A stretch of 64,000 bases of DNA from Halobaculum saliterrae (GTDB lineage Archaea; Halobacteriota; Halobacteria; Halobacteriales; Haloferacaceae): assembly GCF_009831625.1 (NCBI RefSeq), contig NZ_WUUS01000007.1:62001-126000 (forward strand), read 5' to 3'. The position numbers and the translations under genes are program-made. Below the pieces are notes generated by a model. That model saw nothing but the letters and a program-made list of their open reading frames with translations. It was not told the origin of the DNA and made no database searches. Below are positions 29,057 to 58,323 of the stretch, one piece after another; position 1 is the stretch's first letter; each line of letters begins with the position of its first letter.

Positions 29057-30268
29057 CTATTCGTCGTCGTGGTCGTCGTGGTCGTCGTGGTCGTCGTGGT
29101 CGTCGTGGTCGTCGTGGTCGTCGTGGTCGTCGTGGTCGTCGTGGTCGTCGTGGTCGTGCCCCTCCTCGGGATCGGTCGGAACGCTGCCCAAGTTGCCGTG
29201 GTCGTCGAACAGTTTCGCGCGGAGGTAGCGCGTCCGGTAGCGGTTGGCGTCCTCGTACACGTCCGCCTCGCGGATCTCGTCGACGCGGCCGTCGGCGACG
29301 GCGTCGATGACTCCCTCGATCTGGTCCTTCTCGCTGGGCGTCAGGTGGAACGTGTACTCGCGGGGCTCCTCCTCCTCCAACTTCGTCCACCTGCGCGCGG
29401 CGGCGATCACGAGCGAGCACGGCTCCCGGCACGGGAACGCGCCGGTCCCGCCGTCGGCGGCGAGGTCGTCCCCCTCGTCGTACTGCCACTCGCGGCGCTT
29501 CACGCACTGGGAGTCGTCGCAGGCGGCCTCGGCGACCCACTCGACGGCCTCGCGGGGAAGCTCCGAGACGATGCCGTAGATGCCGGTCTGTCGGTCGGTC
29601 GTGTCCGTCCAGTGGTCGATGTCGAGGCGTCCTTCCCGCTCGCGGTACCAGTTGGCCACCGTCGCGGGGTACAGCGTCTCGACCGTCTCCACCGCGTCGC
29701 GCCAATCGAGGTCGTGGAACGCCCACCCGGTCGGCATGTTCGTCCCGGTCTTCAGCGGGCGGTACATCCCGTCGTCGTCGTGTTTCGACAGCTCGCGGGC
29801 CTCCAGCGGATCGTCGTATCGCTCCAGTTCCTCGACCGGGTGGTCGGCGTCGTCGACGTGGCGCACGTCGTAGCGGCGGGAGCCGTCAGCGGGGGTCGCG
29901 TCGCCCGCGGCGTCCGCGAGCGTCGCCTCGATCCTGAGCTGGCCCCACTCGGTGACCATCCCGTCGGCGAGCGCGTCGTACCGCTCGTGGACGCCGTGAT
30001 CGTCGGCCGCCTCCGCGTGCCGAAGGAACGCCCGACGCGGGGACTCGTGGCGCTGCACCTCCCGCTCCCAGAAGTACCAGTTGGTGACGTACGGGCTCCC
30101 GTCGGCATGCGCGTGGAGCTCGGACTCCGAGAGGCCGGTCGCCTCGTGCTCGGGCGTGGCGAAGGTGTAGCCGCCGTCGCTCTCGTGGGCGACGTGTAGC
30201 CCGTCGAAGTCGATCCCGTCGTCGGAGTCGGCGGCCGCTAGCAGCGCGTCGAACTGTCGCGCCAGCAT
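29057..30268 (-). CDS. DR2241-family protein with 4Fe-4S site and His-Asp repeat tail
   Basis: A 403-residue protein. The main part (1-240) matches the DR2241 stabilising domain known beside cobaltochelatase CbiX. A C-terminal cysteine set, CDDSQC and CREPC (about residues 246-283), fits the DR2241 [4Fe-4S] domain. The last 40 residues are a metal-binding tail of ten HDD triplets, encoded by a nine-base tandem repeat. Its ATG directly follows the cbiX stop codon (no spacer), so it shares that transcript. A role in cobalamin or siroheme metal handling is inferred from this linkage; the biochemical role of DR2241 is not established. Confidence 0.82.
   Translation of the reverse strand: MLARQFDALLAAADSDDGIDFDGLHVAHESDGGYTFATPEHEATGLSESELHAHADGSPYVTNWYFWEREVQRHESPRRAFLRHAEAADDHGVHERYDALADGMVTEWGQLRIEATLADAAGDATPADGSRRYDVRHVDDADHPVEELERYDDPLEARELSKHDDDGMYRPLKTGTNMPTGWAFHDLDWRDAVETVETLYPATVANWYREREGRLDIDHWTDTTDRQTGIYGIVSELPREAVEWVAEAACDDSQCVKRREWQYDEGDDLAADGGTGAFPCREPCSLVIAAARRWTKLEEEEPREYTFHLTPSEKDQIEGVIDAVADGRVDEIREADVYEDANRYRTRYLRAKLFDDHGNLGSVPTDPEEGHDHDDHDDHDDHDDHDDHDDHDDHDDHDDHDDE
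29063..29152. repeat. Ten-copy 9-bp tandem repeat encoding the HDD tail
   Basis: The unit GTCGTCGTG is repeated ten times without interruption on the plus strand, and reads as His-Asp-Asp on the minus strand at the C-terminus of the DR2241-like protein. Identical codons throughout mean copy number may change by slippage. Confidence 0.95.
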
Positions 30269-31147
30269 TCAGTCGTCCGCCCCCGGGGCGACGCGGGTCG
30301 TCTCGCGGACGGACTCGATGGCGGCCGAGACGTCGGCCCCGGCGTCGGCCGCGCGCTCCAGCACCACGTCGGCCATCAGCGACTCGGTGCCGACGGCGCC
30401 CGCGTACCAGATCCGGTGGCCGTCGACGGCGGCGGGGACGTCGTAGCCGGTGCGGTAGTCGTCGGTGAGGCCCATGTCCTCGGGGATGTCCTCCTGCGTG
30501 TGGAAGCCGTCGGAGATGAACAGCGGGACGACGACAACGTCCTCGGCGGTGAAGTAGTCGGTCACGTCGTCGACCTCGGGCTCCTCGTCCATGTACAGGG
30601 CCTGCACCTCGTCGAAGCGGTCCATGTCGCGGACGCGATCGGCGTGGTACTCGATCGCCTTCGCGGAGTTCTCGTTGCGCTCGGTGCCGTGGCCGACGAC
30701 GGCGAACCCGAAGCCCTCCCCCACGTCGGGGTCGTTCGTCACGCTCTCGGCTCGCCGCACCAGCACGTCGGTCATCGACTCGTGGGTGCCGACCGGCCCG
30801 CAGTAGTGGACCGTCTGGCCGGTGTCCTCGGCGGTGTAGGTGGCCACGTCCGCGGAGAGCCCGTCGGAGTCCCAGTCGGCCACGTCCCAGTCGTCCAGCC
30901 TGAGCTCCCGGGGGATCACCTGCTCGGTGAAGTACCCCTCCGAGATGAACATCGGGACGACGTACACCTCGTCGGCCTCGCAGGTGCGCAACACCTCCCG
31001 CAGGCTCGGTTCCTCCTTCCAGAATCCGGTTCGGACCTCGTCGAACGCGCCAGCCGCGCGGATCGTGTCCGCGTGGTCGTAGGTTGGCGCGCTCGACCCG
31101 GGGTTCAGATGCGACCCGTGGGCAACGATGACCAGCGCCTGACTCAT
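30269..31147 (-). CDS. cbiX: Sirohydrochlorin cobaltochelatase, two-domain form
   Basis: A 292-residue class II chelatase inserting Co2+ into sirohydrochlorin in early cobalamin synthesis. It contains two CbiX halves, each with a metal-ligand His: VIVAHGSHLNPGS at the start and FAVVGHGTERNENS at about residue 140. Each half also has the paired EVYVVPMFISEGYFT / VVVVPLFISDGFHT segments. The long form suggests internal duplication. ATG 31147 fits the first strand (MSQALVIVAHG) and lies 28 bases from a TATA-like CGATAAGG (31171-31178). The stop abuts the start of the DR2241-like gene. Confidence 0.92.
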   Translation of the reverse strand: MSQALVIVAHGSHLNPGSSAPTYDHADTIRAAGAFDEVRTGFWKEEPSLREVLRTCEADEVYVVPMFISEGYFTEQVIPRELRLDDWDVADWDSDGLSADVATYTAEDTGQTVHYCGPVGTHESMTDVLVRRAESVTNDPDVGEGFGFAVVGHGTERNENSAKAIEYHADRVRDMDRFDEVQALYMDEEPEVDDVTDYFTAEDVVVVPLFISDGFHTQEDIPEDMGLTDDYRTGYDVPAAVDGHRIWYAGAVGTESLMADVVLERAADAGADVSAAIESVRETTRVAPGADD

Positions 31148-31566: not shown

Positions 31567-31692
31567 GTAATCTGAATGATGTTTCTGTCCGCGGTCTTAC
31601 TGAAACTCGCTTCCGTGGGCGGCGTGTCGCCGGTTGTACGGCGGCGCTGTCGGAGTCGTCGCAGCCGCCGGAGTCGCGTCCGTGTCGCCACC

Positions 31693-31798
31693 GGAACCGT
31701 CGCCCGTGAATCAGCATCCCCACTGGAACCGTCGCCCGTGAATCAGCATCCCCACCGGAACCGTCGCCCGTGAATCAGCATCCCCACCGGAACCGTCG
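31693..31798. repeat. 32-bp tandem repeat, three copies plus a 10-base partial
   Basis: Units start GGAACCGTCG at 31693, 31725, 31757 and 31789 (partial). Copies differ at one position (ACT versus ACC at the unit end). There are no unique spacers, so it is not a CRISPR array. The array ends about 30 bases before the most likely start of the downstream gene and overlaps its promoter region. Confidence 0.9.
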
Positions 31799-31830
31799 CG
31801 GTTATGTCCGCCGCCGCCGCGTCCCCGCCC

Positions 31831-57138: not shown

Positions 57139-58323
57139 ATGACAGCACCGTCGGAACGCGCTCCGACACCTGGGGGAACAGACCGCGGCCTCTCGACCGT
57201 CAGAACCCTGCTCGTCGCGCTCCTCGTTCTCGGCGGATCGGTGGGAGGGGCGTTCGCCCTCGGCGTCGTCGGGGCGCCGTCGGTCGTCGGCGTCGAGAAT
57301 CGCTTCGGCGAGGTGACCAACGAGACCACGACGATCGAGAGCGACCTACAGGTGAACAACCCCAACCCGATCGGCGTCAGTCTGGGCGGGACGACGATCG
57401 ACTACGGGGTCTCGATGAACGACGTGTCGATGGCCAGCGGGACCAAGGAGGGCGTCTCGGTCGGCACCGGCAACACCTCGGTCCCGTTCACGACGGAACT
57501 GGACAACTCGAGGATCCCCGCCTGGTGGGTGACCCACGTCCGAAACGGAGAGCACACCGACCTGCGGGTCGACGCCACGGCGACCTCCTCGCTCGTGGGG
57601 CAGAGCTACACGACGCAGGTGTCCCGCGACGTGAACACGTCCGTCATCGAGGCGTTCCGCACGGACGAGCCGAAACCGCTGAACGCGAGTTCCCCCGTCG
57701 TCTCTGACCCGGTCTTGATCCTCGAACGCACCGAGGCCGAGTGGGGAACCGTGAACGAGGAGCGGACGGAGATCGGGATGACGCTGCACCTCCACAACCC
57801 GAAGGCGTACCCGATCGTCGTCTCGGAGATCGGCTACGACATCTACATGAACAACATCACGATGGGAAGCGGCGAGGCCGCCCGCACCACGACCATCGGT
57901 CCCGGCGAGACGGTGGCCGTCGAGGCGACGACCGTGATCCGAACGGGGACGCTCGACGAGTGGTGGGTGTCGCACCTCCGGCGAAACCAAGTGACGGACC
58001 TGCGGATGCCGTTCTACCTCGTGATCGACCTCTCCAACGGCGGCGGCGGCGAACAACGGATCGAACTCGATAGCTACGAGCGGACGATCGAGACGGACGT
58101 GTTCGGAACGAAGCCCGCCGACTCGGGAGTGGACACCGGGTCGAACGGCTCGAGCGACGGTGACGGATCCACCGACGGATCCACCGACGGAACGCCGACG
58201 GACACGCCGACCGGGACCCCGACCCCGTCGTCAACGCCGACAGCGACGCCGACTGCAACGCCGACAGCGACGCCGACTAGCACTCCCACGGGAACGACGA
58301 CGGACGACGGCGGACTCTTCTGA
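57139..58323 (+). CDS. LEA14/WHy-type desiccation-related protein, membrane-anchored
   Basis: A 394-residue protein. An N-terminal membrane anchor (RTLLVALLVLGGSVGGAFALG) is followed by two repeats of the LEA_2/WHy beta domain, each with an N-P pair after a strand (SDLQVNNPNPIGV about residue 72; MTLHLHNPKAYPI about 215). Its tail is a Thr-Pro-rich stalk (TPTATPTATPTATP) ending in GGLF. LEA14 proteins are implicated in tolerance to drying and osmotic stress. The stalk is likely extracellular. It seems monocistronic. Confidence 0.85.
   Translation: MTAPSERAPTPGGTDRGLSTVRTLLVALLVLGGSVGGAFALGVVGAPSVVGVENRFGEVTNETTTIESDLQVNNPNPIGVSLGGTTIDYGVSMNDVSMASGTKEGVSVGTGNTSVPFTTELDNSRIPAWWVTHVRNGEHTDLRVDATATSSLVGQSYTTQVSRDVNTSVIEAFRTDEPKPLNASSPVVSDPVLILERTEAEWGTVNEERTEIGMTLHLHNPKAYPIVVSEIGYDIYMNNITMGSGEAARTTTIGPGETVAVEATTVIRTGTLDEWWVSHLRRNQVTDLRMPFYLVIDLSNGGGGEQRIELDSYERTIETDVFGTKPADSGVDTGSNGSSDGDGSTDGSTDGTPTDTPTGTPTPSSTPTATPTATPTATPTSTPTGTTTDDGGLF

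Follow-up and report, generated by a model that had tools for sequence, protein, structure and literature searches.

An abutting cbiX-DR2241 gene pair in Halobaculum saliterrae: probably a split siroheme ferrochelatase with a repeat-encoded His/Asp tail

Two genes of the haloarchaeon Halobaculum saliterrae that abut end to end raise the question of which metal their products handle. The first encodes a chelatase of the CbiX family and the second encodes a homologue of Deinococcus radiodurans DR2241 that terminates in a run of His-Asp-Asp triplets. The CbiX name and the His-rich tail together invite a cobalt reading, and the combination stands as a warning, as the genomes contradict that reading. 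We analyzed the pair within a window of 64,000 nucleotides (contig NZ_WUUS01000007.1, positions 62,001 to 126,000) and in related genomes. Judging from sequence comparison, the two genes probably encode a split DR2241-type sirohydrochlorin ferrochelatase that uses iron, not cobalt. We consider the wider proposal likely as well: a siroheme ferrochelatase divided into CbiX2 and an Fe-S DR2241 subunit, with a tail that grew by tandem duplication and most likely binds metal.

The gene pair and its domains

The cbiX gene ends in GAC TGA and the ATG of the DR2241-like gene follows with 0 bases between and in the same frame of the window ORFs (Table 1), confirming the sequence-only reading that there is no intergenic base. 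In PDB, the window CbiX matches residues 4-177 of 2JH3, the DR2241 protein of D. radiodurans (E 2.4e-21), and the DR2241-like protein matches residues 273-463 of the same chain. The order of chelatase, stabilising and four-Cys domains is shared by the Deinococcus protein and the Halobaculum pair, but the former is one chain, whereas Halobaculum has two genes, with DUF7348 heading the second and a His/Asp tail added. A CbiX on the same chain as DR2241, of the 2JH3 kind, was not encountered in the window, where the chelatase is a separate abutting gene. The window CbiX is also different from CbiX-S/CfbA, which is a single small domain forming a homodimer, in possessing two CbiX stretches within 292 aa.

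Table 1. Features of the gene pair, in window positions
Feature	Position	Strand	Evidence
cbiX2-type two-domain class II chelatase, 292 aa	30269-31147	-	Pfam CbiX 2.7e-35, two stretches; PDB 2JH3
C-terminal chelatase domain, His153 to His216, predicted catalytic pair	30500-30691	-	conserved in aligned CbiX rows
Phe73, second-His position of the N-terminal chelatase domain	30929-30931	-	Phe in 94/95 rows, gap in 1
DR2241-family iron-sulfur partner protein, 403 aa	29057-30268	-	Pfam domains, PDB match; ATG start directly 3' of cbiX stop
DUF7348 domain, residues 4-72	30053-30259	-	PF24039 1.5e-26
DR2241 stabilising domain, residues 93-211	29636-29992	-	PF18069 1.1e-39, 135.2 bits (cut-off 26.4)
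4Fe-4S domain Fer4_23, residues 212-293	29390-29635	-	PF18009 3.5e-32, 111.1 bits (cut-off 27)
Variable C-terminal tail after YLRAKL motif, residues 354-403	29060-29209	-	sequence, homologue alignment
Perfect 9-bp tandem repeat, ten HDD triplets and a part copy	29063-29157	-	TRF score 190, 10.6 copies, 100% match

The second protein belongs to the DR2241 family, with both of its diagnostic domains (PF18069 and PF18009) exceeding the curated cut-offs. Four residues of the Fer4_23 domain, Cys250, Cys255, Cys280 and Cys284, are conserved as Cys in all 104 aligned homologues, and together with the domain match they support the probable 4Fe-4S site that had been recognized from the letters. A structure search with the predicted model of the DR2241-like protein returned 2JH3 as the sole match at E <0.001 with a low TM-score of 0.26, and this model-based match appears to add little beyond the sequence match. 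A model of the joined pair, built from 7 sequences, was set aside as too low in confidence (mean pLDDT 45.7).

Linkage to cbiX is widespread among the 104 homologue rows. Fusion to CbiX accounts for seven, and in 86 the end of cbiX overlaps the estimated DR2241 start or lies no more than 300 bases from it, with 0 bases between in 19 of these. Only two rows have cbiX at a greater distance and nine have no adjacent cbiX, although seven of those nine have less than 1.3 kb of upstream sequence. By Pfam scan, the gene neighbours in the window are of PurA, DUF7524, DUF7523 and CysS types and not cobalamin genes. A 32-bp tandem unit (3.5 copies, 97% matches, window 31688-31799) lies upstream of cbiX just before the DUF7523 ORF, which starts at 31804, and overlapping 12- and 24-bp tandem repeats are present at window 58162-58278.

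Siroheme genes and the distribution of the pair

In five haloarchaeal genomes from three genera, CbiX and DR2241 are joined in a single ORF, 506-550 aa long when counted from the earliest possible start. Each of the five has a TP_methylase ORF downstream and a nitrite/sulfite reductase ORF upstream; the reductase shares the strand of the fusion except in L132, where it is divergent. Pfam confirmed all five fusions, two of the reductases and two of the methylases, and the remaining assignments come from phmmer. In two Deinococcus records the fusion is flanked by a divergent nitrite/sulfite reductase on one side and an overlapping cobA on the other, with the sulfate assimilation genes sat, cysC and PAPS reductase beside the fusion. 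In Halorussus halophilus the split pair is followed by cobA, the cbiX there being an ORF match, not an annotated gene. At the other split loci, many of which span only 3-4 kb, the methyltransferase and reductase queries matched no siroheme-type neighbour; their matches are confined to the loci named above and the overlapping L122, with two cobalamin clusters also matched by the methyltransferase. Six cobalamin enzymes have been reported as lost from D. radiodurans, with two paralogues, DRA0012 and DR2241, present (PMC1274311).

The DR2241 domain is encoded by 360 of 391 genomes of the class Halobacteria. We examined co-occurrence in a set of 80, consisting of 60 DR2241-positive genomes (every one of the 11 from the window's genus, plus 49 hand-picked to cover a spread of genera) and 20 of the 31 DR2241-negative ones. 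Siroheme use was represented by NIR_SIR and by the siroheme-decarboxylase-type domain PF17805 (AsnC_trans_reg2), which includes the siroheme decarboxylases. By Fisher tests, whose p values are overstated since the genomes are related, CbiG was found in 22 of 60 DR2241-positive vs 10 of 20 DR2241-negative genomes (p 0.31), PF17805 in 48 of 60 vs 1 of 20 (p 2e-9), and PF17805 or NIR_SIR in 60 of 60 vs 2 of 20 (p 5e-16). NIR_SIR alone was found in 58 of 60 vs 2 of 20. In the 80 genomes tested, the presence of the DR2241 gene tracks siroheme use, not cobalamin synthesis. Most PF17805-positive genomes have four matches each, which fits the description of AhbA and AhbB as two two-domain proteins (PMC8305020).

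The two DR2241-negative genomes that possess a siroheme-user family merit individual mention. In G092 a plus-strand CbiX match ends 354 bases from a contig end, so any gene lying downstream would fall outside the contig. G129 carries a pair of CbiX genes, of which one is close to CbiG and the second lies approximately 5 kb from the NIR_SIR gene. Five genera in the set mix DR2241-positive and DR2241-negative genomes. In four of them (g32, g40, g45 and g50) the DR2241-negative genome is without both siroheme-user families and the DR2241-positive relatives have at least one, while CbiG is the same; the fifth (g27) is the exception G092. Of the DR2241-positive genomes, 38 are without CbiG, and exactly two CbiX domain matches are found in 37 of these and three in one, vs none in all 10 DR2241-negative genomes that are also without CbiG. 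Within the window's genus, 5 of 11 genomes are without a CbiG match and contain a single two-domain CbiX, yet they keep the pair; one of them is the genus member with the most tail His (20).

Prediction of the haloarchaeal cbiX2 product (HVO_1128) as a sirohydrochlorin ferrochelatase is already published (PMC3403918; PMC8305020), and the iron-insertion enzyme for siroheme is given as a prediction among the open issues of haloarchaeal annotation (PMC8305020). In the available portions of these papers cbiX2 is, like the window cbiX, a second CbiX outside the cobalamin cluster that is kept where cobalamin synthesis is absent (PMC8305020; PMC3403918), and we infer that HVO_1128 is orthologous to the window cbiX. 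The word DR2241 is absent from the main texts of both papers, and no His tail is mentioned in their available portions. Our literature search found the DR2241 name in a family table only and, among titles and abstract starts, nothing on a His tail of a DR2241 protein. Relative to the literature searched, the present analysis adds a partner subunit, the occurrence of fused forms next to siroheme genes, and the His tail. Co-occurrence, the fusions among siroheme genes and the arrangement of His residues provide independent support for the cbiX2 prediction, and the partner subunit can now be named.

We propose that CbiX2 would insert Fe2+ into sirohydrochlorin at a bilobal site in which His153 and His216 of the second domain are the likely catalytic pair. 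The DR2241 subunit, probably co-translated, would pack against CbiX2 through its stabilising domain and would carry a 4Fe-4S cluster, acting in trans, the equivalent Deinococcus region being in cis. The siroheme product would serve nitrite/sulfite reductase and the alternative haem pathway.

The His/Asp tail

The C-terminus of the DR2241-like protein is GHD(HDD)x10 E, a stretch containing 11 His. Its ten HDD triplets had been ascribed to a perfect nine-base repeat, and the tandem repeat search bears this out, with the repeat number taken as assembled and an assembly error possible. All ten triplets have identical codons, CAC GAC GAC, and the HDDHDDHDD coding pattern occurs 8 times in the 3.78 Mb genome, always in the tail, vs 0 times in the reversed control. 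Comparison of tail length in related genomes, as suggested alongside the sequence-only reading, does reveal differences between species: the window tail has 50 residues with 12 His, and that of the closest homologue (94% identity over 341 core columns) has 25 residues with 3 His. Because the tail of the closest relative is 25 residues long and the ten triplets share their codons, the HDD tract looks as expected of a recent tandem expansion.

We counted tail His from the end of the YLRAKL motif in 104 distinct rows, 20 of 124 loci having been dropped as duplicate or open. The number ranges from 0 to 23, with none in 73 rows and four or more in 12. Those 12 comprise five from the window's genus, four from Halobellus and three from three other genera of the same family. 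Conservation in relatives had been put forward as decisive for both the cbiX linkage and the tail; the linkage is kept and the long His tail is not. On a quick tree with 33 of 101 inner branches well supported, the tail His state changes at least 10 times, a count that does not distinguish gain from loss. The units of the His-rich tails are diverse: HDD in the window, HNHDD in Halobellus salinus and HSDDGDHDD in G109, with the tails of L043 and L045 being of mixed sequence.

It is probable that in Halobaculum and some other lineages the DR2241 C-terminus has been repeatedly extended by tandem duplication into a His/Asp tract. The tract would most likely bind labile divalent metal near the active site as an Fe2+ buffer or delivery device, and would be unneeded for the core reaction. 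The analogy is with CbiX-L of Bacillus megaterium, in which a class II chelatase likewise comes with a 4Fe-4S centre and a His-rich region, but with both on one chain, an MXCXXC motif and an N-domain His pair (PMC7689651). In the available text, deletion of the CbiX-L extension containing the cluster and the His-rich region left cobalt insertion unaffected, and storage or delivery is only proposed (PMC7689651). By the same analogy, the Halobaculum tail may hold metal ions or buffer metal (Fe2+). We tentatively entertain, with rather less than even confidence, a two-subunit siroheme ferrochelatase with a fast-evolving His/Asp iron reservoir, re-invented by codon-repeat expansion, as the in-trans iron counterpart of the His-rich extension of CbiX-L. 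In the predicted structure of the DR2241-like protein, pLDDT is <50 over residues 333-396 and 401-403. This is consistent with a disordered tail, as weak evidence, because pLDDT in the same single-protein model is also <50 over residues 218-306, the conserved cluster region.

A siroheme ferrochelatase whose tail has no metal function, having arisen by slippage of the GC-rich CAC GAC GAC repeat at a tolerant end, is somewhat unlikely. Haloarchaeal proteins commonly tolerate acidic, loose sequence, and the window repeat is perfect and built from a single codon set, with the closest relative lacking such a repeat. Long acidic tails without His also exist, three of 42 residues and 0 His being found among the rows listed. 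As tail His is missing from 73 of the 104 homologues, the tail is dispensable and possibly neutral, and judged by the alignment it is optional. However, every one of the 11 tails in the genus has one or more His following the [PA]T motif, and long His-rich tails built from differing units are found in several branches. Of five other HDx codon sites in the 11 genomes, one falls in a nickel-insertion protein and another in a protein that binds molybdopterin.

The only other HDx codon site in the window genome, a looser one, is in a His/Asp-rich insert of the nickel-insertion protein (PF01969, presumably LarC-like; L136:344-2002, minus strand). The molybdopterin-binding protein (PF00994; L138:1008-1586, minus strand) of the relative G109 has a His/Asp-rich N-terminus, and such tracts therefore occur on more than one metal-cofactor protein in the genus.

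It is unlikely that the tail acts as a sink keeping Ni2+, Co2+, Zn2+ and Cu2+ off the chelatase, or as a high-metal sensor slowing it, and not as an Fe2+ supplier. His-rich sites bind those four ions more tightly than Fe2+ (Irving-Williams order), which favours this explanation, as does the absence of a CbiG match, hence of any sign of early cobalt insertion for B12, from two of the five long-tailed genus genomes. Tails of at least 40 residues are nevertheless found both with CbiG (3 of 6 genus genomes) and without it (2 of 5, one of which, G385, is only 85% complete). The tails form a natural series, from 0 to 23 His, for asking whether repeat tails tune the metal supply of a chelatase.

Two CbiX proteins in one genome

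The four CbiX domain matches of the genome are shared equally between the window gene and a single other gene. The other gene clusters with CbtA, CbtB, four TP_methylase-type ORFs, CbiG and DUF3209. The corresponding cluster of Halobaculum magnesiiphilum is plasmid-borne and carries a cobalamin-synthesis annotation. His153 and His216 of the window CbiX are His in all 95 CbiX rows with an alignment spanning 200 or more query residues, among them the Deinococcus fusions. The cobalamin-cluster CbiX has R and L at those columns. Its His pair is instead in the N-terminal domain, accompanied by MSCDTC (MXCXXC) and a His-rich stretch of its own; the 292-aa window CbiX has neither the MXCXXC motif nor a His-rich extension. 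CbiX-L is recorded as having an N-domain His pair, MXCXXC and a His-rich stretch (PMC7689651; PMC5816740). On sequence grounds, the cobalamin-cluster CbiX bears these marks of the cobaltochelatase, and the window CbiX has the opposite arrangement.

Membership in the class II chelatase family and a His pair, as for sirohydrochlorin ferrochelatase, are both found in the window CbiX. The Paracoccus CbiX (PDB 4CCS) provides a likeness, being annotated cbiX and once thought to be a cobaltochelatase, yet shown to be a siroheme ferrochelatase with an essential His pair in its C-terminal half (PMC4063343). It is different in being a 231-residue chain, with no DR2241 partner named in the available text (PMC4063343), and it resembles the window CbiX only weakly in sequence (E 0.019). 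The arrangement of His residues alone does not settle the metal, because the cobaltochelatase CbiK likewise has its His pair in the C-terminal domain (PMC7689651). The C-terminal pair of the window CbiX is consistent with iron, not proof of it.

It is very unlikely that a bifunctional SirC inserts the siroheme iron and that the CbiX2-DR2241 pair performs another siroheme-linked job, such as cluster-dependent regulation or repair. The available literature leaves the ferrochelatase role of haloarchaeal SirC undecided (PMC8305020; PMC3403918), but the chelatase His pair is kept in every aligned row, and the fused form adjoins the branch-starting methyltransferase and the siroheme-using reductase. 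Least probable, and rejected here, is the sequence-only reading of a cobaltochelatase with a cobalt store or delivery function for B12 synthesis, which has on its side the Pfam name CbiX and a resemblance of the His-rich region and 4Fe-4S site to B. megaterium CbiX-L, where metal storage or delivery is proposed (PMC7689651), and against it the distinct, CbiX-L-like CbiX of the cobalamin cluster, the retention of the pair in genomes without CbiG, the tracking of siroheme use and the siroheme genes adjoining the fused versions.

The cobalamin-cluster CbiX is plasmid-borne in H. magnesiiphilum and H. roseum. Because this CbiX sits on plasmids and CbiG is unmatched in 5 of 11 genus genomes, B12 synthesis in Halobaculum looks losable and perhaps mobile.
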